Virus record (IMG/VR): IMGVR_UViG_3300037809_000210
Location: 1-22,460 of that record
Reading direction: 5' to 3' (one strand)
Length of the DNA: 22,460 nucleotides
Origin: a virus
The notes under the pieces were generated by a model. That model ran no database searches, was not told the origin of the DNA, and saw only the letters and a program-made list of their open reading frames with translations. This document shows positions 3,919 to 22,460 of this stretch, in pieces. Numbering within the stretch: position 1 is the first letter of the stretch; each line of letters begins with the position of its first letter. The translations under genes and the position numbers were made by a program.

Positions 3919-4303
3919 CTACTGGGACACCTTATCATTAGAGGATAAGAAATCATGGTCTAATTATATGATTAATAGGTTTTTATCAATGAAACCTGAA
4001 TGGGTTGTAATTGTAAATGAATTTCAAAAGTACACGCTAGATCCTAAAATATTATATAAATTATATATAGACGTGATACCTAAACGTAAACAATATATTA
4101 AATACATAAAGGAAAAAGATAATATGAAATATCCACAATGGGTTTTAGAGGCAATCTCTAAACATTACGAAGTTAGTATCAAACAATCATATGAATACGT
4201 AGAAGTGTTCTTAATGACTGAAGGTGGTAAAGTTGAACTTCACGATTTATTAGCAAAATATGGCGTTGATCCTAAAGAGTTAAAAAAACTAAATCTAAGA
4301 TAG
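3827..4303 (+). CDS. 62: Clamp-loader small subunit (T4 gp62-like)
   Basis: gp62 is the single non-ATPase subunit that completes the T4-type clamp loader with gp44. The 158-aa product has the recognisable LFEHLNHLT (17-25) near its start, the YMINRFLSM helix (47-55), and a segment YKLYIDVIPKRKQYIKYIK (77-95) matching the basic VPRGKRY region of T4 gp62. A helix WVLEAISKHYEVS (105-117) matches LAKRYQV of T4. The C-terminus LLAKYGVDPKELKKL also fits. It is shorter than T4 gp62 (187 aa). The first 15 residues are Lys/Ser-rich and lie in the overlap with the small upstream frame, so the true start could be slightly downstream. ATG 3827 has AGGAG about 15 nt upstream and a closer AGG. Confidence 0.82.
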   Translation: MSGKKIGKKSSVKRKTLFEHLNHLTAVQTNDYWDTLSLEDKKSWSNYMINRFLSMKPEWVVIVNEFQKYTLDPKILYKLYIDVIPKRKQYIKYIKEKDNMKYPQWVLEAISKHYEVSIKQSYEYVEVFLMTEGGKVELHDLLAKYGVDPKELKKLNLR

Positions 4304-4312
4304 GGGGAACAC

Positions 4313-4858
4313 ATGAGTAGTATAGACAATCTGTTTAAACAAATAGAATGGGGCATCAACCTCAAATCCAATACAGTATATCTAACATACGATATTGATT
4401 CAGATCAGTTACATTCAATTATGTCTAGATTTGATGCAATGTCTCAGTATAATGGAGGGGAAGATCTTAATCTTATCATATCATCATATGGTGGTGATGT
4501 ATATTCAATGTTAGGGACTATTGATTACTTTAAGTCATTACCAGTTAAAGTGAATACCCATGCTGTGGGGACAGCTATGTCAGCTGCAGCAGTTATACTA
4601 GCATGTGGTACTGGTGAGAGAACTATGACTGAAAATTCTACAGTGATGATACATGAAGGCTCAGCATTTGAAGCTGGGAAGACGTCAGATGTGCTGAAGG
4701 GTGCAGATCACTTAAAAAAGCTTCAGTCGAATATTAATCGAATATTAGGTGACGTTACAACCAAATCACATACATTCTGGGATGAAGTTAGTAAACAAGA
4801 TACATATTTAACAGCAGAAGAATCGTTGAAATATGGTATAATTGATAGGATAATATAA
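4313..4858 (+). CDS. clpP: ClpP-type serine protease
   Basis: A 181-aa peptidase of the ClpP/crotonase fold. The catalytic triad is visible: Ser90 in GTAMSAAAV, His114 in VMIHEG, and Asp163 in KQDTYLTAEES, followed by the ClpP ending LKYGIIDRI. The strand IISSYGGDVY (55-64) matches the oxyanion-forming GG region. It lacks the longer propeptide region of bacterial ClpP (207 aa in E. coli). No ClpX/ClpA ATPase is in the window, so it would have to use a host unfoldase, act alone on peptides, or serve in capsid maturation; known phage roles include prohead protease folds of this type, but position in the replication block argues against that here. It has a strong AGGGGGAAC ribosome site before ATG 4313 and a TAATG overlap with the next gene. 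Confidence 0.92.
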   Translation: MSSIDNLFKQIEWGINLKSNTVYLTYDIDSDQLHSIMSRFDAMSQYNGGEDLNLIISSYGGDVYSMLGTIDYFKSLPVKVNTHAVGTAMSAAAVILACGTGERTMTENSTVMIHEGSAFEAGKTSDVLKGADHLKKLQSNINRILGDVTTKSHTFWDEVSKQDTYLTAEESLKYGIIDRII

Positions 4859-6140: not shown

Positions 6141-6586
6141 TGGAAACACCATATATTAATTTATCATTAAGATTGAATTTGTCTGATTTTATAGACACTA
6201 CATATGAAAGTGTTGTTATGGATAATATTGTCAAGTCGTATTCAGATTTAAGTACACAATTCAAGTTATATTTATGGTATGATTCTGATGACGTGATACC
6301 CCATTCTAGTCTAAAAGATTTTATGTTAAAATATGAAAAAGTGTTACATTATAAAACAAAAATTAGACCCAATAATGAATTAGATAGAAGTGATTACGTG
6401 TGGTATAATGTAGAATCTGATGCATGTAATTATTCGAATATTTTCTTTAGATTTAATTATAAATATCCCGAACCTTATGGCGCATATGGGATTTTAAACG
6501 GTATAGAAGAATTTAACAAATGCGCATCGTTTTGCCTATCACCTAAAGAACAGGTGAGAAAACAAAAAAGAAATGATGGGGTGTAA
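6140..6586 (+). CDS. Hypothetical protein
   Basis: I do not recognise this 148-aa protein. It is soluble-looking, rich in Tyr, Asn and Asp, with no signal peptide or membrane segment. A middle part (about 60-115) alternates aromatic and polar residues, suggesting beta structure, and includes YVWYNVESDACNYSNIFF. The last 12 residues are basic. The TAATG overlap with the nuclease gene and a following 51-nt gap suggest it ends a transcription-translation unit. Codon choice is similar to its left-hand neighbours but richer in AT. Confidence 0.7.
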   Translation: METPYINLSLRLNLSDFIDTTYESVVMDNIVKSYSDLSTQFKLYLWYDSDDVIPHSSLKDFMLKYEKVLHYKTKIRPNNELDRSDYVWYNVESDACNYSNIFFRFNYKYPEPYGAYGILNGIEEFNKCASFCLSPKEQVRKQKRNDGV

Positions 6587-12855: not shown

Positions 12856-13764
12856 ATGACAGTAGCATTTTTTACAGAAATGGATAGTTTTCCTAAAGAA
12901 GCAATTACTAAGGAATACAATAATATGAGAACCGAGTTTGCTTGGATGGTAGCTCTAAACTCAGACCATTACAATTTAAATGATAATAATATTTCTAAAC
13001 ATTATGATTTAGGTATAGTTATCAATTCAAAGAAAAACCCAGAGTGGGTTAATGTTTCTAAGTTAAAAACTTATTGTGATAAGGTAGCTGTAATGCAAGA
13101 AGGACCGTTTTGGTATTTTCAAGACTACCCACTATCAAAACAAATTCAATATTTTAATAATTTAGCAGATGCTGATATTATATATGCCCATAATGAATCT
13201 GATGTTGAATATTACAAAGGATTAGTTAACCATAAGGATGTTAGAGTTCTAAGATCACTTATGTATTCAAACCCAATAAAGACTATAACACACCATGAAA
13301 GTAGAAAGGGAGTGATGATTGGAGGTAATATGAAAAGTTGGTATGGTGGGTTTGATTCTTTTATGCTTGCATCTTCTATCACAAGTGAAATTTATCAACC
13401 AAAAATGGGTAGGAGAGAAGAAGGTGAGGAAGAGCTAGGGTTAACCCAATTGCCTTATATGGTGTGGAATGAGTGGATGTCAGAATTAAGTAAAAGAAAA
13501 ATAGGTATTCACATGATGCGTACGCATGCTGCGGGTACGTTTGCGTTAAATTGCTCATATTTAGGCATTCCGTGTATAGGTTATGATGGTTTAGATACTC
13601 AACGTATTCTACATCCAAACTTAACAGTAAAAGATGGGGATTTAAACACTGCAAGAACATTAATTTCAAGGTTGGACAATGATAGTGATTTTTATACATT
13701 ATGTAGCAATGAAACGTTAGAGATGTATAATGAACATTACCACGAATCTAAATTTAAGATATGA
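12856..13764 (+). CDS. GT-B-like glycosyltransferase
   Basis: The 302-aa protein looks like a small GT-B glycosyltransferase. The N-terminal half has strand-loop pieces (TVAFFTEMDSF, YDLGIVINSK, VAVMQEGPFWYFQDYP). The C-terminal half has GVMIGGNMKSWYGGFDSF (about 151-168), then RKIGIHMMRTHAAGTFALNCSYLGIPCIG (about 216-244), which resembles the donor-side ...G...EA...G.P signature, with the canonical Glu absent. Activity is therefore uncertain. Composition changes inside the gene: I count 2 CpG before about 13515 but 9 in the last 250 nt, which suggests a mosaic. It overlaps the following small frame by 4 nt. Confidence 0.7.
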   Translation: MTVAFFTEMDSFPKEAITKEYNNMRTEFAWMVALNSDHYNLNDNNISKHYDLGIVINSKKNPEWVNVSKLKTYCDKVAVMQEGPFWYFQDYPLSKQIQYFNNLADADIIYAHNESDVEYYKGLVNHKDVRVLRSLMYSNPIKTITHHESRKGVMIGGNMKSWYGGFDSFMLASSITSEIYQPKMGRREEGEEELGLTQLPYMVWNEWMSELSKRKIGIHMMRTHAAGTFALNCSYLGIPCIGYDGLDTQRILHPNLTVKDGDLNTARTLISRLDNDSDFYTLCSNETLEMYNEHYHESKFKI

Positions 13765-13883
13765 AAATATTAGTAATAGGGAAAGCAAGACATACCTTAA
13801 ATCAAAACCAACAAGCAGGAATAATACTAGGTTGGAACCCTGAAATAAATTTAATAGATTATTTAAAAACAGTAATAAAATGA
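13761..13883 (+). CDS. 40-aa ORF, small gene or gene remnant
   Basis: An open frame of 40 codons fills the gap between the GT-B-like gene and the aminotransferase, with ATGA overlaps at both ends. It begins MKILVIGKARHT, like the first strand and loop of a Rossmann-fold enzyme, then NQNQQAGIILGWNPEINLIDYLKTVIK. A free-standing 40-aa Rossmann start cannot be an active enzyme, so this may be a truncated glycosyltransferase or nucleotide-sugar enzyme left by recombination, or a short translational coupler. The overlaps argue that it is translated. Confidence 0.6.
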   Translation: MKILVIGKARHTLNQNQQAGIILGWNPEINLIDYLKTVIK

Positions 13884-15088
13884 AAGAAAAAGTTATGAAT
13901 AAACCAAACAATAAAATTCCATTATTTAAAGTATTTATGTCACCTACGGCAAAAGATAAAGTTGGTGAAGTTTTAGATAGTGGGTATATAGGACAAGGAC
14001 CTAAAGTAGAAGAATTTGAATCACTACTTAAAGATCGTTTTAAACATGATTATCTTCAAACTGTAAATGCTGGCACATCTGCTTTACATTTAGCTCTTCA
14101 TTTATTAAAAAAACCCTCCCAAAACCCAAAAAAATATCAAGGTATAATTCAATACAATTCTCAATGGCCTGGATTAGAACCAGAAGATGAAGTTTTAGCA
14201 ACTGCTATGACTTGTACAGCTTCAAATTGGCCTGTGTTAGCTAATGGTTTAAAATTAAAATGGGTTGATATTGACCCAACAACATTAAACATGGATTTAG
14301 ACGATTTAGCACGTAAAATAACGCCTAAAACCAAAGTTATAATGTTAGTACATTGGGGAGGATACCCTAATGATTTAGACAAAATAAAACAAATACAAGA
14401 TAAAGCTCAACAGATGTATGGGTTTAGACCTGCAGTAATTGAAGATGGAGCTCATTCTTTTGGATCTGAATATAAAGGAAAACCAATTGGAACTCATGGC
14501 AATTTAACTATGTTCTCCTTACAAGCTATTAAGCATATTACTTCAGTTGATGGAGGTTTACTTCTCTCTCCCCATAAAAAATTACATGATAGGGGTAAGT
14601 TATCTAGATGGTATGGTATCGATAGAGATGGAGATAGAAAAGATTTTCGCTGTGAAGCTGATATTGAGGAATGGGGTTATAAATTCCATATGAATGATGT
14701 TTGTGCTACTGTAGGTATTGAAAATCTAAAACATGCTGAAGAAATTATTCTTAAACATAAAGAAAATGCTGCGTATTACGATAAACACCTTCAAAATGTG
14801 GGGGGTGTAACTTTATTAAAACGTGAGAAAGGATTTGATTCTGCGTTCTGGATTTATTCTTTAAAAGTAGAGGATAGAGCTGGATTTTATAAACATATGG
14901 ATAAATGTAATATAGCAGTCTCTCAGGTTCATGAGCGTAACGATAAACATACTTGTGTTAGAGAATTCCAATCTGAATTACCTTCATTAGATGCTACAAT
15001 AGGGAAAATAGTTTCAATCCCAGTGGGTTGGTGGGTTACCCCTGAAGAAAGAGAATATATTGTAAATTGTATTAAAAAAGGATGGTAA
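13880..15088 (+). CDS. DegT/DnrJ/EryC1/StrS-type sugar aminotransferase
   Basis: A 402-aa PLP enzyme that converts a nucleotide-linked keto-sugar to an amino-sugar, usually with glutamate as donor. The features are in order: SGYIGQGPKVEEFE (34-47), NAGTSALHLAL (63-73) for the phosphate of PLP, a middle domain strand VDIDPTTLNMD, VIEDGAHSFGSEYKGKPIG (186-204) with Asp189 for the pyridine nitrogen, and Lys218 in SLQAIKHIT as the Schiff-base lysine, followed by DGGLL. All catalytic residues are present and the length is normal. The start is ATG 13880 in an ATGA overlap; ATG 13895 is an alternative. The next gene, a formyltransferase, overlaps by 7 nt, making an amino-sugar then formamido-sugar route likely. 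Confidence 0.93.
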   Translation: MKEKVMNKPNNKIPLFKVFMSPTAKDKVGEVLDSGYIGQGPKVEEFESLLKDRFKHDYLQTVNAGTSALHLALHLLKKPSQNPKKYQGIIQYNSQWPGLEPEDEVLATAMTCTASNWPVLANGLKLKWVDIDPTTLNMDLDDLARKITPKTKVIMLVHWGGYPNDLDKIKQIQDKAQQMYGFRPAVIEDGAHSFGSEYKGKPIGTHGNLTMFSLQAIKHITSVDGGLLLSPHKKLHDRGKLSRWYGIDRDGDRKDFRCEADIEEWGYKFHMNDVCATVGIENLKHAEEIILKHKENAAYYDKHLQNVGGVTLLKREKGFDSAFWIYSLKVEDRAGFYKHMDKCNIAVSQVHERNDKHTCVREFQSELPSLDATIGKIVSIPVGWWVTPEEREYIVNCIKKGW

Positions 15089-15666
15089 TAAATAACATTT
15101 TAATTTGTGGCTCAACTTTTTTGACAAAGGCCGTTACTGACGTAATTAAACATCATTATAATATAGTAGGGTATATCCCAACCAATAATAGTCCTTTCAC
15201 AACTAGTTTGGATTATCCGATTGTGGATTTTAATATAGACTATGATATAATCCTTTCAATTCAGTACGATAAAAAGGTATCAATATATGAAAATTCATAT
15301 AATGTCCATACAGGTTTATTACCTGAGTGGGGTGGGTGCGATATAATATACCATACTTTAAAATCAAAAGCTAATGAACAAGGTCTAACATTTCATCAAA
15401 TGTCTAAAAATTTTGACGAAGGTTCAATTATAAGTAAAATAACATATCCAATATTTAGCAATGATACTATGGAAAATTTATATGATAGAAATATCAGAAT
15501 AACACCATATTTTGTTTTAAATTCTCTAAAGTTATTAGAAACTTTACCTAATGAGTTAGAAATCCCTTTGTTAAAACCTAAATTATATAAGAGAGGTGAG
15601 ATATTAACAAAAGATTTAAAAGAATATAAAAATTTCCCTAAAAAAATTAAAAATAAATATGGCTAA
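15082..15666 (+). CDS. Sugar N-formyltransferase (formyl_trans_N type)
   Basis: The 194-aa protein has the core of 10-formyltetrahydrofolate-dependent transferases. It opens NILICGSTFLTKAVTD. The catalytic triad can be read as Asn74 and His76 in NVHTGLLPEWGG, and Asp112 in NFDEGSII, with GLTFHQMS (101-108) between, as in ArnA, VioF and QdtF-type sugar formyltransferases. It is short: there is no C-terminal Fmt or ankyrin domain. It most likely formylates the amino group made by the overlapping upstream aminotransferase, giving a formamido-sugar nucleotide. The formyl donor would come from host folate; FolE2 at the left end of the window feeds the same pterin pathway, an appealing but untested link. 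Confidence 0.88.
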   Translation: MVINNILICGSTFLTKAVTDVIKHHYNIVGYIPTNNSPFTTSLDYPIVDFNIDYDIILSIQYDKKVSIYENSYNVHTGLLPEWGGCDIIYHTLKSKANEQGLTFHQMSKNFDEGSIISKITYPIFSNDTMENLYDRNIRITPYFVLNSLKLLETLPNELEIPLLKPKLYKRGEILTKDLKEYKNFPKKIKNKYG

Positions 15667-15709
15667 TGGGATTTACAATTAATTTCCCCTTCCCAAAAAT
15701 AATTAAAAC

Positions 15710-16693
15710 ATGCAACAGTGGACAATAGATAAAGATCGTTTACATAATCTGGGTGAAGTACAATATCTTGGAGTACCTTATGAGATGATTAAAAATGGTG
15801 AAGTACCTACTTTACCTAAAGATTATAATGGGTGGTTTCCATTTATGAGAATGTGTTATAGTATAGGAGATTTAGGCATTATATCTGGAATATTTGAAGC
15901 TTTAAAACAAAAATACCCTAATATTAAGATTGCATTCCCATCTAAAGAATACATAAACCATATTTTAGGTCCTTCAGCAATAGAAAAATGGGGATTTGAT
16001 GAAAATAATACAGGTACTAGTAATTTAGATACTATATTAATAAATAACCCATTTATTGATAAAATATTTAACGTTGGAGAATTTACTAAAGTTTTTATAG
16101 ATCATGATAGATCTTATACTGAACTAGTACATGATGGCAATAAAGTTGTATCCTGTGATGAACCACTAGCTGAACAAATATTAAGAAGATGGGGATTTAA
16201 TGATGATGATATTAAAAATATTGATTCAACCCCAAAATTATATTTTACTCAAAAAGAAATGGGTAAGTGTGAAGATATAATTAACCAACATATTGGTTCA
16301 TATGATTATGGGTGTTTATTATTAGCATCCAGGTTAAAAGAATATGCTAATAGAGTATGGGATGGAGAGGAATACCTTTTCCAATATATTGAAAAATATA
16401 AAGATTTACCTATATTTTACTATTCTCAAAACCAACTAGAAAATACTAAATGGGAAGAATTTTTTCCTAATAGAATTGACTTTTCCCAATTAGGGTTAAG
16501 TATAAGAGAACAAATTTACATTAAGCGAAAAGCTAAATTTAATGTGGGGTATCAAGCAGGTATAACTGATATATCTTCTGGTGGAGGTAGTGATATAATT
16601 ACTTTATGTCCTTATAATTCAATAAGAGAAAATTGTATTAGAGGAACCAGATATGTTTACACCGATGGAAGTACTAAAATTATAGAAAAATAA
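15710..16693 (+). CDS. GT9-like (heptosyltransferase-fold) protein
   Basis: The 327-aa protein has YSIGDLGIISGIFEALKQKYPNIKIAF (about 51-77), the pattern of GT9/heptosyltransferase enzymes, in which a Gly-Asp-x-G loop precedes the first long helix. A second-half strand GCLLLASRLKEYANRVWDGEEY (about 201-222) and the C-terminal FNVGYQAGITDISSGGGSD fit the donor-binding half in order, with Ser/Gly replacing the usual PS..H.A. The donor and acceptor are unknown. It starts after a 43-nt gap, with no strong ribosome site visible. CpG is scarce (about 4 in 984 nt). Confidence 0.68.
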   Translation: MQQWTIDKDRLHNLGEVQYLGVPYEMIKNGEVPTLPKDYNGWFPFMRMCYSIGDLGIISGIFEALKQKYPNIKIAFPSKEYINHILGPSAIEKWGFDENNTGTSNLDTILINNPFIDKIFNVGEFTKVFIDHDRSYTELVHDGNKVVSCDEPLAEQILRRWGFNDDDIKNIDSTPKLYFTQKEMGKCEDIINQHIGSYDYGCLLLASRLKEYANRVWDGEEYLFQYIEKYKDLPIFYYSQNQLENTKWEEFFPNRIDFSQLGLSIREQIYIKRKAKFNVGYQAGITDISSGGGSDIITLCPYNSIRENCIRGTRYVYTDGSTKIIEK

Positions 16694-16717
16694 AAAAATA
16701 CTTTGGACAGAAATATA

Positions 16718-17947
16718 ATGAAAATATCACTAATTCAACCAGGTCGAAATAATCTAAAATACCTAAAATGGTCTTATGACTCAATAAGAAAAAATCAGGG
16801 CAACCATGAAGTGGAAATTTGTGTAGCAGATGATGCTTCAACAGATGGAACTTGGGATTGGTGTGTTGAGATGATGGGTAAAGATTCCAATTTCAAAGCT
16901 TTAAAATGGGATGGTCCTGAAAGAGTAGGTCATACTATTTTATATGATAGGCTAATTAATGAGGTAGCAACAAATGACATTTGTATGATTTATCATGCTG
17001 ATATGTACTTATGCCCAGGTGCTTTAGATGCGATTGAAAAACATATGTATGGAACAGCAGAAGAACCTGTAGTTGAGAGTAGAATAGTATCACTTACAAG
17101 AATTGAACCCCCATTACATCCCCCAGGACCAGAAAAAATATTACAAGATTTTGGAATAGAACCTGAAGAATTTGATGAAAAGGGTTTATTAGAATATGTT
17201 AAACTTTATCAACCTAATTTATCAACTACAGAAGGCATATTTGCACCTTGGGCATTTTGGAAAGAAGACTTTCAACAAATAGGAGGACACGACACTATGT
17301 TCGCTCCCCAATCGAAAGAAGACACAGACATATTTAATAGATTTCACTTAAATGGAGTAGAATTTATCCAAACATGGGAAGGATTTGTTTATCATATGAC
17401 TTGTAGAGGTAGTAGATTTGCTGATGGAGCAAAACGAAATCCAAACGGTGAAGTATTTATGAAAAATAGAGAAACAGATGAATGGTTAGCCCAAAATCAA
17501 AAATCAACACGGGAATTCATTCGTAAATGGGGTCATTTTTGTAAACATGACGCTTTAATGAAACCTATTGTCCCTCCTAAATATAATATTGGTTTAGTAG
17601 TGCATAATAGCAATATGCCTTTGATACAGACGTTAGAGCCATGGTGTGATAAACTATACCATGATTCTGGGTTCACCGTTGAACTGCAATATATTAAAAG
17701 TGAACAGCCAAACACATCACTTGATTTAGATTCGAGAGTAGTGTCTATTAATGTTGATAACAAGGATGTTGATGTATTAGTAGAGTTTGATGCTGATAAA
17801 TTAACAAATGAATCCTTTAAATTTATACAGAATCTCCCTTTAATATTGCAAGATAGTGGGGAGATAGGTGATATGGAATATGATATCTTTAAAATATCGA
17901 TAAACTCATTGAAAACATATGAACACTTATTAATTAAAGCAATCTGA
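16718..17947 (+). CDS. GT2 glycosyltransferase with C-terminal extension
   Basis: A GT-A fold enzyme of 409 aa. KISLIQPGRNNLKYLKWSYDSI opens the domain. CVADDASTDGTWDW (about 36-49) is the classic nucleotide-binding motif. YHADMYLCPGA, near 90-100, holds the metal-binding DxD-like element (HAD). FAPWAFWKEDFQQIGGHDTMFAPQSKEDTD follows near 180-210, the acceptor/catalytic-base region. From about residue 286 a separate segment begins (PKYNIGLVVHN) that is not part of a GT2 domain: about 120 residues, acidic, with a repeated VDNKDVDVLVEFDADK style. I start it at ATG 16718; a TTG at 16703 is in frame but weaker. It stops in a TGATGG overlap with the next gene. Confidence 0.88.
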   Translation: MKISLIQPGRNNLKYLKWSYDSIRKNQGNHEVEICVADDASTDGTWDWCVEMMGKDSNFKALKWDGPERVGHTILYDRLINEVATNDICMIYHADMYLCPGALDAIEKHMYGTAEEPVVESRIVSLTRIEPPLHPPGPEKILQDFGIEPEEFDEKGLLEYVKLYQPNLSTTEGIFAPWAFWKEDFQQIGGHDTMFAPQSKEDTDIFNRFHLNGVEFIQTWEGFVYHMTCRGSRFADGAKRNPNGEVFMKNRETDEWLAQNQKSTREFIRKWGHFCKHDALMKPIVPPKYNIGLVVHNSNMPLIQTLEPWCDKLYHDSGFTVELQYIKSEQPNTSLDLDSRVVSINVDNKDVDVLVEFDADKLTNESFKFIQNLPLILQDSGEIGDMEYDIFKISINSLKTYEHLLIKAI

Positions 17948-18201
17948 TGGATTACTATATATTACTTGAAGGGGACACTGAAACTGATGTATTATTAGAC
18001 AATAACCTATTGGGAACTGAGAGCTTTGGAGTATTTTATCCAGGTCAAGGGTTCGTAGCATTCCACAAAATAGTAAATGCTCGCCCCGATTTATTAGACA
18101 CTTTAACCATAAAGACTGATATGAATAAAACGTTAAGTGTCACAGAGTTTATGGATTTGTTTGTTAAATTTAAAATAAAAAACGTTGATGTTTGTATTTA
18201 A
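17947..18201 (+). CDS. Small conserved-looking phage protein
   Basis: The 84-aa product begins DYYILLEGDTETDVLLDNNLLGTESFG and ends with KTLSVTEFMDLFVKFK. The EGDT...D...N.LG..SF pattern is one I associate with small unknown proteins of marine T4-like phages, from memory only. No function can be read. It is acidic and soluble. The ATG overlaps the stop of the GT2 gene by one base, so it is coupled to the end of the glycan block but its character is that of the phage backbone. Confidence 0.75.
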   Translation: MDYYILLEGDTETDVLLDNNLLGTESFGVFYPGQGFVAFHKIVNARPDLLDTLTIKTDMNKTLSVTEFMDLFVKFKIKNVDVCI

Positions 18202-18203
18202 TT

Positions 18204-18214
18204 GTTGTATATTA
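18204..18214 (+). promoter_or_regulatory. GTTGTATATTA element (possible promoter part)
   Basis: Lies in the 29-nt gap before the small basic gene, 16 nt upstream of ATG 18231, and is followed by an AGAAGGA ribosome site. It differs at one base from the copy at 6614-6624 and at one from that at 20539-20549. Confidence 0.3.
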
Positions 18215-18230
18215 AGAGAAGGAAATAAGA

Positions 18231-18413
18231 ATGGCTACTGAGTGGAAGGATTGGGATGATCTTGAAGAAGATGCTCAATATATAGGAAGTGTGAAGCACA
18301 CTAAAAAGAAAAAAACGTGGAAGCAAATAGACGCTGATAAGAAGTCTATAAAAATTAAATGGCAGAAGAAAAAGAAAAAGGGAAAATATGAAAACGTTAA
18401 ACCTAATAAGTAG
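18231..18413 (+). CDS. Small lysine-rich protein
   Basis: A 60-aa protein with an acidic first third (WKDWDDLEEDAQYIG) and a very basic remainder, about 20 lysines, ending GKYENVKPNK. There is no fold signature. It could bind nucleic acid, or be a small phage factor with charge-segregated ends. AGAAGGA lies 8 nt before ATG 18231. The last 26 nt overlap the start of the lipoprotein gene in another frame. Confidence 0.7.
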   Translation: MATEWKDWDDLEEDAQYIGSVKHTKKKKTWKQIDADKKSIKIKWQKKKKKGKYENVKPNK

Positions 18414-18903
18414 TTTAGTATTATTAATTGCTATAGGATGTGAAGGAGATTCACATTCACCTGATATATTATTAGAAGTAACTCCTAATTTAACATTAGA
18501 CGGTAATGGGTATTATCATCTAAATATAAACACTGGTAGTTGGCAGACGTTGCATAGATTATCAGGAACTGTTTACAAAGATTCAGAACCACTAGATGTT
18601 TTAAAGGTGTATTGGGAAGCATCACATTATTGGTATATGGGTGACACTTTAGGATTTTCATACACAAAAGGATTAACTCACGATTTAAACTACGTTACAC
18701 TTGACACAACCTATATTACAGGATTTAACGGGCTAGAAGTTCCCGTTGTTAATTCGACATGCTACAGCAATTCTGATGGTGAAGTGAACACTATGTTTGC
18801 ACCAGTTAGAAGTATGGTGGGAGATACTGTGGTGGTGTGGATTTATTATTGGAATTACGATGATGAGTTAATGGAGTATAATATTTTTATAATTTTAGAT
18901 TAG
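18388..18903 (+). CDS. Phage-encoded lipoprotein
   Basis: The 171-aa product has a typical lipoprotein signal: MK, a hydrophobic core LISSLVLLIAI, then a lipobox ending in Gly17-Cys18, after which EGDSHSPD follows. After processing it would be lipid-anchored in the inner or outer membrane. The mature part is rich in Tyr, Trp, Thr and Val with alternating patterns (GTVYKDSEPLDV, YWEASHYWYMGDT, MVGDTVVVWIYYW), suggesting a beta-sandwich domain. There is a Cys near residue 121 in the mature part. Phage lipoproteins can block superinfection at the cell surface or aid lysis; neither is shown here. The start lies inside the preceding gene, with AAAGGGAAA just upstream. Confidence 0.85.
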   Translation: MKTLNLISSLVLLIAIGCEGDSHSPDILLEVTPNLTLDGNGYYHLNINTGSWQTLHRLSGTVYKDSEPLDVLKVYWEASHYWYMGDTLGFSYTKGLTHDLNYVTLDTTYITGFNGLEVPVVNSTCYSNSDGEVNTMFAPVRSMVGDTVVVWIYYWNYDDELMEYNIFIILD

Positions 18904-18913
18904 GATTATTGCA

Positions 18914-19165
18914 ATGAAATACAATTTAATAGACATTAACGATAATATAGTAACCAGTGTATTGTTAGAAGGTGCAACTAAAAGAGATGCAAAGCGATAT
19001 TTTATGAAACGTAAAATGTTTGATTTGGATGAATCAAATTTTGATAAATTGTGGAGAGTGATGTCTCAGGAAGAATGGAACGTTGAATTTGAAAATGGTC
19101 ATAAAAAACAAGGTATCGAATGGTGGTGCAAAAGATTTTGTAGAGTATCTTACCAAAAGTGTTAG
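18914..19165 (+). CDS. Small hypothetical protein
   Basis: The 83-aa protein begins YNLIDINDNIVTSVLLEGATKRDAKRYFMKRKMF and continues FDKLWRVMSQEEW. The opening two beta-like strands and the following basic helix look like a small alpha/beta domain of a sort common in T4-like phages, but I cannot name it. Two Cys close the C-terminus. It overlaps the next GTG start by 7 nt. Confidence 0.72.
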   Translation: MKYNLIDINDNIVTSVLLEGATKRDAKRYFMKRKMFDLDESNFDKLWRVMSQEEWNVEFENGHKKQGIEWWCKRFCRVSYQKC

Positions 19166-19719
19166 ATAGTTTATTGACAGGAGTAATCCTGTTTAGTTCA
19201 TTCTCGATGAGGACTGCAAACGTACAACCAAACCCAGATGATTATGAGTTTAGTGTAGGTTTGAAAACTGATTCTTGGTACTTGAATAGACAATGGGAAC
19301 GGGAGTTGGGCACTGACTATGTAGATACTCAACTGTGGGCTGTTTATGATGATAACAATGCATATATAAAGCCTGAATATTTTAATAAACAATCGAAGGA
19401 TGTTCTATATTTGAAGGTGGATTTACGATCATCTTATAAGGGTATAACCTTCGGATTAACTACAAGAAATAAGGATGAAACCTTAAAAACGTTTGAGAAT
19501 TTCTTTTCTGGTGGTTGTAATCTTGGTAAGGATTATGAAAAAATAAAAGTAGATTTTTCAGCAGATGGATATTACACTGAAGATTTTGATTATGAGACTA
19601 AGTATAATATGAGTTGGAAACTTACAGATACGGTATCGATATACAATGTTGGTGAATTTTTTAATATTAAAGGTAAAGAGTTTTATAAAGCGAAAATAGG
19701 GTTAGAGGTTAATTTATGA
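19159..19719 (+). CDS. Probable exported protein, function unknown
   Basis: The 186-aa product uses GTG at 19159. Residues 1-20 (LDSLLTGVILFSSFSMRTANV) look like a weak signal peptide without a leading Lys/Arg, with a possible cleavage near the Ala before NVQPNPDD. The remainder is rich in Tyr, Asp, Lys and Phe with alternating hydrophobicity (LYLKVDLRSSYKGITFGLTT; FYKAKIGLEVNL at the end), suggesting beta strands and possibly an outer-membrane or periplasmic beta structure. It follows the lipoprotein gene by one gene. An internal start at ATG 19207 would remove the signal. Its last base triplet overlaps the PRTase start by 4 nt. Confidence 0.65.
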   Translation: MLDSLLTGVILFSSFSMRTANVQPNPDDYEFSVGLKTDSWYLNRQWERELGTDYVDTQLWAVYDDNNAYIKPEYFNKQSKDVLYLKVDLRSSYKGITFGLTTRNKDETLKTFENFFSGGCNLGKDYEKIKVDFSADGYYTEDFDYETKYNMSWKLTDTVSIYNVGEFFNIKGKEFYKAKIGLEVNL

Positions 19720-20114
19720 AAAAATATTTATCATGGGAAGATTTTAGAATTGCTGTAGATGCTATAGCTGTAAGATTTAAATGTAACAAGTATAAGGGAG
19801 TGTATGGGATTCCTCGTGGTGGTTTGATTATGAGTGTTATGTTGAGCCATAAGTTAGGTATACCTCATTTAACTGAATTACCATCAATGCGTGGTAGGCA
19901 TTTTTTAGTAGTAGATGATATAGCGGATACTGGATATACGTTAGAGCATACTATGGGGCTTGATGTATGTGCACATGCTGATAGTGCTACTATCCATTAC
20001 CACAAAGATAGTTCATTCAAACCAGATTATCATGTTATGGAGAAAGGCAACGATTGGATAGTATATCCGTGGGAGTGTTGCGAGGAAGATGAAATACAAG
20101 ATTATAAACGATGA
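19716..20114 (+). CDS. Phosphoribosyltransferase (type I PRTase)
   Basis: The 132-aa protein carries GVYGIPRGGLIMSVMLSH (28-45), the pyrophosphate loop region, and FLVVDDIADTGYTL (63-76), the PRPP-binding signature with its paired acidic residues. The length and the IPRGG element resemble xanthine/hypoxanthine-type enzymes. The C-terminal hood segment DSSFKPDYHVMEKGNDWIVYPWE fits Xpt/Gpt-like enzymes, where KPDY and WIVYPWE recur. It would attach a base to PRPP to give a nucleotide, serving purine salvage in the infected cell. It overlaps the previous stop and ends in an ATGA overlap. Confidence 0.88.
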   Translation: MKKYLSWEDFRIAVDAIAVRFKCNKYKGVYGIPRGGLIMSVMLSHKLGIPHLTELPSMRGRHFLVVDDIADTGYTLEHTMGLDVCAHADSATIHYHKDSSFKPDYHVMEKGNDWIVYPWECCEEDEIQDYKR

Positions 20115-20287
20115 CTGATTTATCACCAGAAGCATTACAAGAATTAGAAGCGATTATAAAAGAAATAGAAGAAATCGCCAATGATGTAGTTAAGGATTAT
20201 GAAGATACACCGTCCGAAGAAAGCGGGAGTGTTATCGAGATACATATCAATAGTCCTTTATTAGAAGAAAACGAACAGGAGTTATAA
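20111..20287 (+). CDS. Small acidic protein
   Basis: A 58-aa frame from ATG 20111 (ATGA overlap with the PRTase) to TAA 20287. The first 30 residues form a likely acidic amphipathic helix (SPEALQELEAIIKEIEEIA), then a Ser/Glu linker, then VIEIHINSPLLEE. Nearly a third of the residues are Asp or Glu. It fills what would otherwise be the only unexplained 170-nt gap in this stretch. The next ATG follows after one base. The function is unknown. Confidence 0.75.
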   Translation: MTDLSPEALQELEAIIKEIEEIANDVVKDYEDTPSEESGSVIEIHINSPLLEENEQEL

Positions 20288-20288
20288 T

Positions 20289-20510
20289 ATGGTAGAGTTA
20301 CAATGGTATCACATAACAGCGTCAGCAATTGTTGGATTAATATTTGGATGGGTTATATTATCTATGTTAGTATCTAGCAAAATATCTGATCTAGAATCTG
20401 AAATAATTTCACTCAGAGCTGTGAGATCAGCATTAAAAGAAGAAATATTCAGGTTAGATAATCAATCAAAACCAAAGCCTAGAAAGAAAAGATCCCCTAA
20501 AAAATCATAG
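20289..20510 (+). CDS. Single-pass membrane protein with coiled coil
   Basis: The 73-aa protein has one membrane segment (about 8-29, ITASAIVGLIFGWVILSMLV), a Leu/Ile/Glu heptad-like helix SKISDLESEIISLRAVRSALKEEIFRL (30-56), and a strongly basic tail PKPRKKRSPKK. This shape is seen in spanin-like and holin-accessory proteins and in membrane anchors for phage complexes; there is no spanin-specific motif. The gene ends the long overlapping series: a 115-nt gap follows. Confidence 0.75.
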   Translation: MVELQWYHITASAIVGLIFGWVILSMLVSSKISDLESEIISLRAVRSALKEEIFRLDNQSKPKPRKKRSPKKS

Positions 20511-20538
20511 TTAATTGTTAATATTTGTTGCGTTTATA

Positions 20539-20557
20539 GTTGTATGTTATATTTATA
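20539..20557. promoter_or_regulatory. AT-rich candidate promoter in the 115-nt gap
   Basis: The gap 20511-20625 contains GTTGTATGTTA (20539-20549, see 6614 and 18204), running into TATATTTATA (20548-20557). The decamer recurs exactly at 21025-21034 in the next gap. Read on the minus strand it contains TATAAATA, the T4 late-promoter box, though the genes here run on +. No clear -35 hexamer is present. The rest of the gap is featureless apart from the GGAG site at 20613. Confidence 0.3.
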
Positions 20558-20625
20558 TGTATTAAAACATGACAATTGCTAATTGAATTCTTGCAAACAT
20601 AACCCTCTGATTGGAGAAACCCAAC

Positions 20626-20910
20626 ATGAATAAGAAAGAGCATCAGGATTTAGAATTAGTATTATACAGGCTCGATGAGCAAGACAGCAAACGAATTAAC
20701 TTGGAGACAGAAGTGAATAAGAAGCTAGTAGATATCCACAAAGATATACGTTTCATAAAAGAAAGTTTATTCAACCCAGATACAGGGCTATGGGCAGAGG
20801 TTAAGCAGAACTCACGATTCCGTGAAAGTAGCGATAAATGGAGAACTATGACTGGGGCGGCACTATTAACATTAATAGTTAAATCACTGTACGAGTTTTT
20901 TATACAGTAA
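20626..20910 (+). CDS. XhlA-like small membrane protein
   Basis: The 94-aa protein has an N-terminal coiled-coil stretch (KKEHQDLELVLYRLDEQDSKRINLETEV, then LVDIHKDIRFIKESLF), a conserved-looking NPDTGLWAEVKQNSRFRESSDKWR (50-73), and a C-terminal membrane helix GAALLTLIVKSLYEFF (77-92). This layout resembles XhlA-type haemolysin/holin accessory proteins of phages and is a candidate lysis component or inner-membrane anchor. TTGGAGAA precedes ATG 20626 by about 8 nt, which is why I reject the in-frame TTG at 20611. A terminator follows about 20 nt after its stop. Confidence 0.78.
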   Translation: MNKKEHQDLELVLYRLDEQDSKRINLETEVNKKLVDIHKDIRFIKESLFNPDTGLWAEVKQNSRFRESSDKWRTMTGAALLTLIVKSLYEFFIQ

Positions 20911-20931: not shown

Positions 20932-20954
20932 AACCCTACAATAGTAGGGTTTTT
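20932..20954 (+). terminator. Rho-independent terminator
   Basis: A perfect 8-bp inverted repeat, AACCCTAC and GTAGGGTT, surrounds a 4-nt loop AATA, and the right arm runs into a short T run (TTTTT in all). It lies 22 nt beyond the stop of the XhlA-like gene, where a transcription unit should end. The T run is short, so termination may be partial. Confidence 0.8.
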
Positions 20955-21061: not shown

Positions 21062-22303
21062 ATGATATTATTAAAGAGTTTAATTCCAAATAAATTCATT
21101 ATATCTGAAGGAAAGGGGATGAGTTCGAATACTCACATAGGTGATGCTATAGTTTTTACAAACAATCAAACTGTACCATATATATTGATAAGCAATGATT
21201 TTTATGCTGACGTTAGTAGTTCTGCAGAGAAAATGGGTTTAGATACAACAATCGTGCACAAAATTCCAAAAGTTAAGACAAATATCAAATCAGGTTTTAT
21301 CTTTGTACTTGAATCACCGGATAAAACAATTGGGATAGTGAGATATTCTAAAAAAAATAGTGGCAACTATCCACCAGGGAAATTTGAGCTTAAATGGGTG
21401 AAGTCTTCAGAGAGCTTTGATATAAAACCTCAGAGTATAATACCAAGTATGTTAGGTAAGCTACAAACTATTATTGCTTTTAAAAAGGGAATAATAGATG
21501 GTGTAAACAGTAGATCAGATTTAGATCAAGGATTGAAAGATTATTTAGTAGATATTACAAACAAAGCTAACGGAAAGCTTAACATATCTGTAGACATATC
21601 ACAATATATACCCACACCTACAAAAAGAGCATTTGCACAAATAGAAAAGAATTTCGCTGAGATGATTAGCGCAATTGAAGTGTGTGGTAAAACTGATAAA
21701 ATATATATACCTAAAGCTGGAAATGAACCATTGCTTGACTTTAGAATATATAAGAACGATGGTACTATAATGAATTACTCAGCAAAATCTAAAAGTAAAT
21801 CAGCTAATACTGTAAAACTAAAAAGCATTAAAGATACGATAGATAGCGATAAAACTAAATATGAAAAATTCATGAAAGGGAAATTTAAAATAGTATATGA
21901 TGTGTTAACTATAGCATCTACTAAGACGATTAGAGGAGCATACTATCCATTGTTTGAATTGTTTGATATTAAGTTTGACGACTCACATAAAACGAAATGG
22001 GGTACTTTTAAAAACCTATCCAAAGAAGATAAGATTAAAGAAGGGGTATATGTGATGGAACGTAGTAAGCTATTATTTGCAAAGTTAAACACTAAAACGT
22101 TTAAAACTTTAGCAGAAGATGTAATAAATAGTTTAGTGACAGTGGACTTTGTTATATCAGATATAAATAACAAAACAGGAAGTGTTACAACTAAAGTAAA
22201 AGCAGCAACAGATGTTAGTATTTTATTTAGAGAAAAGAATTATGTATCATTTAACAAGCAGTCGTGGAGACTTGATAGTAAGTTGGGATTTAACGTCAAA
22301 TAA
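21062..22303 (+). CDS. Hypothetical protein with a possible nuclease-type motif
   Basis: I do not recognise this 413-aa protein. It starts MILLKSLIPNKFIISEGKGMSSNTHIGDAIV. In the middle, after a helix with Glu200 (NFAEMISAIE), comes LLDFRIYKNDGTIMNYSAKSKSKSANTVK: Asp226, Ser240-x-Lys242 and a basic Ser-rich loop. This spacing resembles a PD-(D/E)XK nuclease core, where D and the (D/E/S)xK bind the metal, but the match is by eye only. The C-terminal half has alternating Lys-rich strands. AAGGA precedes ATG 21062. It is alone behind a terminator and a gap and followed by repeats, so it is probably a separate transcription unit. A virion structural role cannot be ruled out. Confidence 0.8.
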   Translation: MILLKSLIPNKFIISEGKGMSSNTHIGDAIVFTNNQTVPYILISNDFYADVSSSAEKMGLDTTIVHKIPKVKTNIKSGFIFVLESPDKTIGIVRYSKKNSGNYPPGKFELKWVKSSESFDIKPQSIIPSMLGKLQTIIAFKKGIIDGVNSRSDLDQGLKDYLVDITNKANGKLNISVDISQYIPTPTKRAFAQIEKNFAEMISAIEVCGKTDKIYIPKAGNEPLLDFRIYKNDGTIMNYSAKSKSKSANTVKLKSIKDTIDSDKTKYEKFMKGKFKIVYDVLTIASTKTIRGAYYPLFELFDIKFDDSHKTKWGTFKNLSKEDKIKEGVYVMERSKLLFAKLNTKTFKTLAEDVINSLVTVDFVISDINNKTGSVTTKVKAATDVSILFREKNYVSFNKQSWRLDSKLGFNVK

Positions 22304-22336: not shown

Positions 22337-22347
22337 TTTTTTTTTTT
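22337..22347 (+). other. Run of eleven T
   Basis: An uninterrupted T tract about 34 nt after the end of the 413-aa gene. It could be the tail of a terminator, but the only partner stem I see (GGGATTT inside the gene end with AAATCCC just before the tract) has a loop of roughly 35 nt, so I do not call a terminator. Confidence 0.6.
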
Positions 22348-22364
22348 GAGAAGCATAACATATA

Positions 22365-22381
22365 AGTGTGGTACCCACACT
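22365..22381. repeat. Perfect 7-bp hairpin next to the repeat array
   Basis: AGTGTGG and CCACACT surround a 3-nt loop TAC. It has no T run after it. Its right arm overlaps the first four bases of the first 14-bp repeat, so the hairpin and array form one structure. Confidence 0.75.
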
Positions 22382-22460
22382 AAGCACGAATAGCACGATC
22401 AGCTGGAGCACTAAGCACGAATAGCTGGAGCACTAAGCACGAATAGCACTAAGCACGAAT
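22378..22460. repeat. Nested direct-repeat array, 4 copies of CACTAAGCACGAAT
   Basis: Four exact copies start at 22378, 22409, 22431 and 22447, at distances of 31, 22 and 16 nt. The spacers shrink: 17 nt (AGCACGATCAGCTGGAG), 8 nt (AGCTGGAG, identical to the end of the first spacer) and 2 nt (AG). The fourth copy ends at the last base of the window, so the array may continue. It is not a CRISPR: the repeats are short and the spacers are pieces of one another. Candidate roles are a replication origin, a protein-binding array or a recombination/packaging site; an assembly artefact at a contig end is also possible. Confidence 0.9.

Follow-up and report, generated by a model that had tools for sequence, protein, structure and literature searches.

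The closest described counterparts of the array studied here are tandem repeats of the VNTR or minisatellite type that arise by replication slippage, such as those in the intergenic DNA of Borg elements (PMC9879509). Like these, it consists of exact units placed head to tail in intergenic DNA, free of substitutions and apparently recent, and in neither case do related genomes conserve the sequence. Borg repeats have an excess of A and C and a deficit of T and G (PMC9879509), while the present array is richer in GC than its surroundings; further, it has only four copies, and the unit length falls from 31 to 22 to 16 nt. It has also been noted that automatic assemblies get tandem repeat regions wrong (PMC9879509). 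The array is probably an ordinary slippage-type repeat: it has copies of a single unit, head to tail, and the gains and losses are bounded by a short direct repeat (AGC). A CRISPR array, with constant repeats and unrelated spacers of constant length, looks different, as the spacers here are nested and 17, 8 and 2 nt long.

The window, i.e. the whole stretch of DNA that was analysed, is an entire public linear IMG/VR contig of 22,460 bases. It encodes a clamp loader, a sliding clamp, a head-maturation-protease-like protein and an exonuclease, together with GTP cyclohydrolase, a dCTP deaminase/dUTPase-like protein and glycosyltransferase-type genes, and many viral contigs match this gene block. 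The nearest named phage found is Flavobacterium phage immuto (46.5% identity, via one glycosyltransferase), which comes from a Baltic Sea mesocosm and has T4-like capsid genes annotated in its record. Judging from this match and the gene content, the source is probably a marine T4-like phage. The features used below are:

20611-20910, plus strand: 99-aa ORF, with relatives at 50-78% identity; anchor of the comparison with L140-L145
21062-22303, plus strand: orphan 413-aa ORF, the last ORF, just upstream of the array
22337-22347, plus strand: run of 11 T downstream of the last ORF's stop codon, with no stem in front
22365-22381, no strand assigned: perfect hairpin with a 7-bp stem, AGTGTGG-TAC-CCACACT, which overlaps repeat copy 1
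22378-22408, plus strand: unit 1, the longest, CACTAAGCACGAATAG + CACGATCAG + CTGGAG, 31 nt
22409-22430, plus strand: unit 2, without CACGATCAG, 22 nt
22431-22446, plus strand: unit 3, without CACGATCAG and CTGGAG, 16 nt
22447-22460, plus strand: unit 4, 14 nt, cut by the contig end

The original prediction described four exact 14-bp repeats with nested spacers, a perfect hairpin overlapping the first copy, and a position in non-coding DNA after an 11-T tract and up to the last base; all of this holds to the base. The 14-mer CACTAAGCACGAAT has exactly four exact copies in the window, all of them terminal (22378-22391, 22409-22422, 22431-22444 and 22447-22460), against an expected count of 0 in 100 dinucleotide shuffles, and a chance origin is excluded. 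The spacers are AGCACGATCAGCTGGAG, AGCTGGAG and AG, every shorter one being a suffix of the longer. The array occupies the final 83 bases (22378-22460), downstream of the stop at 22303, and its last base is the end of the assembly. The 413-aa ORF in front of it has no relative found in homologue searches; its N-terminus (LIPNKFIISEGKG) resembles a T4-type prohead-protease cleavage signal.

The first three copies have 16 nt in common, CACTAAGCACGAATAG; of the exact repeats, the two longest measure 25 nt (22401/22423) and 19 nt. Everything after unit 1 (22409-22460, 52 of 52 nt) is an exact copy of earlier array sequence, in three pieces and with no substitution, and the copies are therefore either recent or artificial. 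The two internal losses, CACGATCAG (9 nt) and CTGGAG (6 nt), both have AGC at the junction, which for the CACGATCAG skip means a homology of 3 nt. If AGC triplets are taken as the separators between words, the array can be spelled d a b c / d a c / d a / d a, where d is ACTA, a is ACGAAT, b is ACGATC and c is TGG. The earlier suggestion of stepwise slippage or deletion within one original unit fits this exactly: three copy events suffice.

We therefore propose, as the probable explanation, that the array is a slippage product in intergenic DNA of a marine T4-like phage and that the assembly breaks within it. Recent serial replication slippage would have started from one 31-nt unit, the growing strand re-pairing repeatedly at AGC or AGCAC words and adding whole units, and skips of 9 and then 6 nt would give the successive lengths of 31, 22 and 16 nt. 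The adjacent hairpin and T run may have favoured polymerase pausing. The array would then coincide with the contig end because the assembly stopped inside it, and it presumably continues beyond. Beyond neutral or near-neutral turnover of repeats, we propose no function for it.

An informative comparison is that with a syntenic relative. Through the 99-aa gene (78% identity) we found the 58.5-kb contig IMGVR_UViG_3300007760_000015 (L140/L141), in which the gene order of window positions 12856-20910 is largely preserved, with some genes in between differing. After its copy of the 99-aa gene comes non-coding DNA that holds copies of the GAATACGTGTATCG type and also CCAGAAAAGTTTCAGCC(TTCAGCC)TTCACTTTTTG units, first 35 nt and then 28 nt long, the latter lacking TTCAGCC; further on there are ATTCACTTATAGCCT units. 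As in the window, these arrays lie in non-coding DNA downstream of the same gene block, the first unit is the longest and an internal segment is lost in the next. They differ from the array of the window in that they follow directly after the 99-aa gene rather than after a 413-aa ORF, lie inside a long contig and have an unrelated unit sequence. Hence there is no conserved motif, and what the two have in common is slippage outside coding DNA: by comparison of the two sequences, the behaviour of the array appears to recur in this syntenic relative while its sequence is not conserved. Both genomes also have a hairpin just after the 99-aa gene: in the window it is terminator-like (AACCCTACAATAGTAGGGTT, 20932-20951, then TTTGGG), and L140 has a similar hairpin with a T run at the matching place (~6310-6340).

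Such arrays are not found everywhere. L142 and L145, which are more distantly related, have none just after the 99-aa gene, L143 and L144 have none in the short stretch covered, and Flavobacterium phage immuto, checked against gene tables, has no comparable array in its non-coding DNA. Across some 2.3 Mb of loci, three occurrences of one exact 12-mer in a stretch of 120 nt are rare, being seen in the window, in L140/L141 and in four other loci.

The position of the array at the end of the contig was compared with other contig ends, taking as a repeat at least 12 matching bases at a fixed period. Among 74 ends, those of the window and its relatives, only the right end of the window has an exact repeat of this kind, leaving 72 related contig ends without one; within the loci, at a somewhat stricter limit of 14, such a repeat is present in 25 of 8946 windows of 150 nt. 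With one array at 74 ends and such arrays rare inside loci, it is unlikely to be a coincidence that the contig ends inside the array: the array either brought the assembly to a halt or was itself a product of the assembly. In another set, L167 begins at base 1 in a perfect tandem array of five 12-nt units (L167:1-60). This shows that contig ends inside tandem arrays do occur in this collection, as is expected if arrays stop assemblies. The contig-end effect raised in the original prediction is thus supported.

It counts against the slippage explanation that a perfect array of 83 nt alone would not normally stop a large-k assembler. Consequently, the array is longer than what is seen or the coverage fails there.

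An assembly or library artefact, in which the terminal 80-96 nt would be absent from the phage genome, is the main rival; we consider it less probable than slippage but a serious possibility. It would have arisen when templates were switched during amplification, or when the assembler took a wrong path through short shared words (AGC, CAC) at a low-coverage contig end. In its favour, the array lies exactly at the contig end and its words are joined by AGC. Further, the 96-nt end segment has a GC content of 49%, more than any other stretch of this length in the contig (33% overall); this would also fit a chimeric join near 22365, and it counts against slippage. That the final 32 nt (22429-22460) have a period of 16 was considered as a k-mer signature of an assembly cycle, and not adopted.

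The searches for the motif elsewhere, which may leave out records very near the window's own, give the artefact some further support, since nothing beyond chance matches was found in IMG/VR or in the phage, plasmid and genome collections. A 16-mer search of IMG/VR gave two matches, both in unrelated sequence; the hairpin 16-mer has one match in viral contigs, also unrelated; and the word CACGATCAGCTGGAGC has 55 matches, in which the match to the array extends over at most 18 nt. A 19-mer of the array is in no contig of the genome collection, and the phage and plasmid collections gave short, weak chance matches only. For slippage, too, it is a disadvantage that no relative was found to carry the array of the window. 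Against an artefact, none of twelve adapters and linkers matches. The LA linker, whose sequence was confirmed in PMC3466414, is the best of the twelve, at 15/22, a level that is also reached 64 times in 2.29 Mb (one strand), and carry-over was rejected. The array words were not found as a published primer in the literature searched. Also against an artefact, similar nested non-coding arrays occur well inside the 58.5-kb contig of the syntenic relative. Together with the 52 nt copied exactly, the AGC at both losses and the start of L167, these nested arrays count for slippage as the cause.

The original prediction also considered an origin, a packaging site or a recombination site. Non-coding DNA in which exact repeats adjoin a hairpin would suit a functional intergenic site, for instance an iteron-type origin, where a protein would bind the 14-mers. 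However, iterons are regularly phased and lie near a skew switch, whereas the copies here follow each other at 31, 22 and 16 nt, without phasing, and GC skew, the check suggested for an origin or terminus, is positive over the whole contig. The other suggested check, a search of relatives for the 14-mer, found none with the motif; it is absent from the collections as well, and the L140 arrays are unrelated in sequence. This part of the prediction is unsupported, and we regard a functional site as improbable.

An element acting in the transcript seems just as improbable. In this case the hairpin would terminate or stabilise the transcript of the 413-aa gene, with the repeats belonging to a small RNA. 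A hairpin and a T run do follow the stop codon, and the terminator scan lists the hairpin (22365-22381) as terminator-like, but weakly and on the minus strand (TATATGTTAT tail). On the plus strand the T run comes before the hairpin, which is the wrong side for an intrinsic terminator with its GC-rich stem followed by T, and the scan has no plus-strand site there. Moreover, the whole region folds no better than its shuffles (RNA z = 0.20; DNA z = -0.95), and there is no Rfam family and no tRNA.

In some of the relatives there is a conserved non-coding element, which is not in the window. It is about 270 nt long (GACAATTAGGTAGTAAATTCATCACG...GGGCGATGTTAACGGCG...GTGTCAAGGGGTGATGA) and is found in marine phage contigs, at L142:3625-3860, L145:10412-10680 and in L146-L169 except L160. 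Of the 24 contigs retrieved by a 17-base word, two of which are those of L142 and L145 once more, 23 have the element; L153 has the first part only before the locus ends, and L160 was rejected as an unrelated match. The RNAalifold structure has 53 pairs, of which six show two-sided changes; the changes lie in few linked blocks, so that they represent few independent events. One element sequence folds no better than its shuffles, and in L142 and L145 the element has no Rfam match at E <= 1. It is possibly an undescribed structured RNA.

In L142 and L145 this element lies after TTGAC-type promoter-like repeats. A promoter-like CTTGACTT...TAT..TGTA repeat occurs three times in L140 (7787-7824, 7940-7977 and 9089-9126), two of the copies lying just before small ORFs, and the same type of sequence recurs in L142-L145. 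L142 also has a manA RNA match upstream of an ORF (4178-4373; 47.9 bits, gathering 55.2, E 3e-9).

In general, features at the ends of metagenomic viral contigs should be read with caution, as they coincide with the places where assembly fails; a tandem array at such an end tells more of the assembly than of origins or packaging. The conserved element of some relatives may be of more interest than the array. It is conceivable, but highly speculative, that in phages of this group the gene block is followed by a maintained non-coding stretch where directional, progressively shrinking arrays are remade repeatedly, as in the window and L140, with the repetition itself being selected, e.g. as a pausing or recombination site. 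What the recurrence of nested arrays in the syntenic relative does suggest is that slippage is frequent in this intergenic zone.
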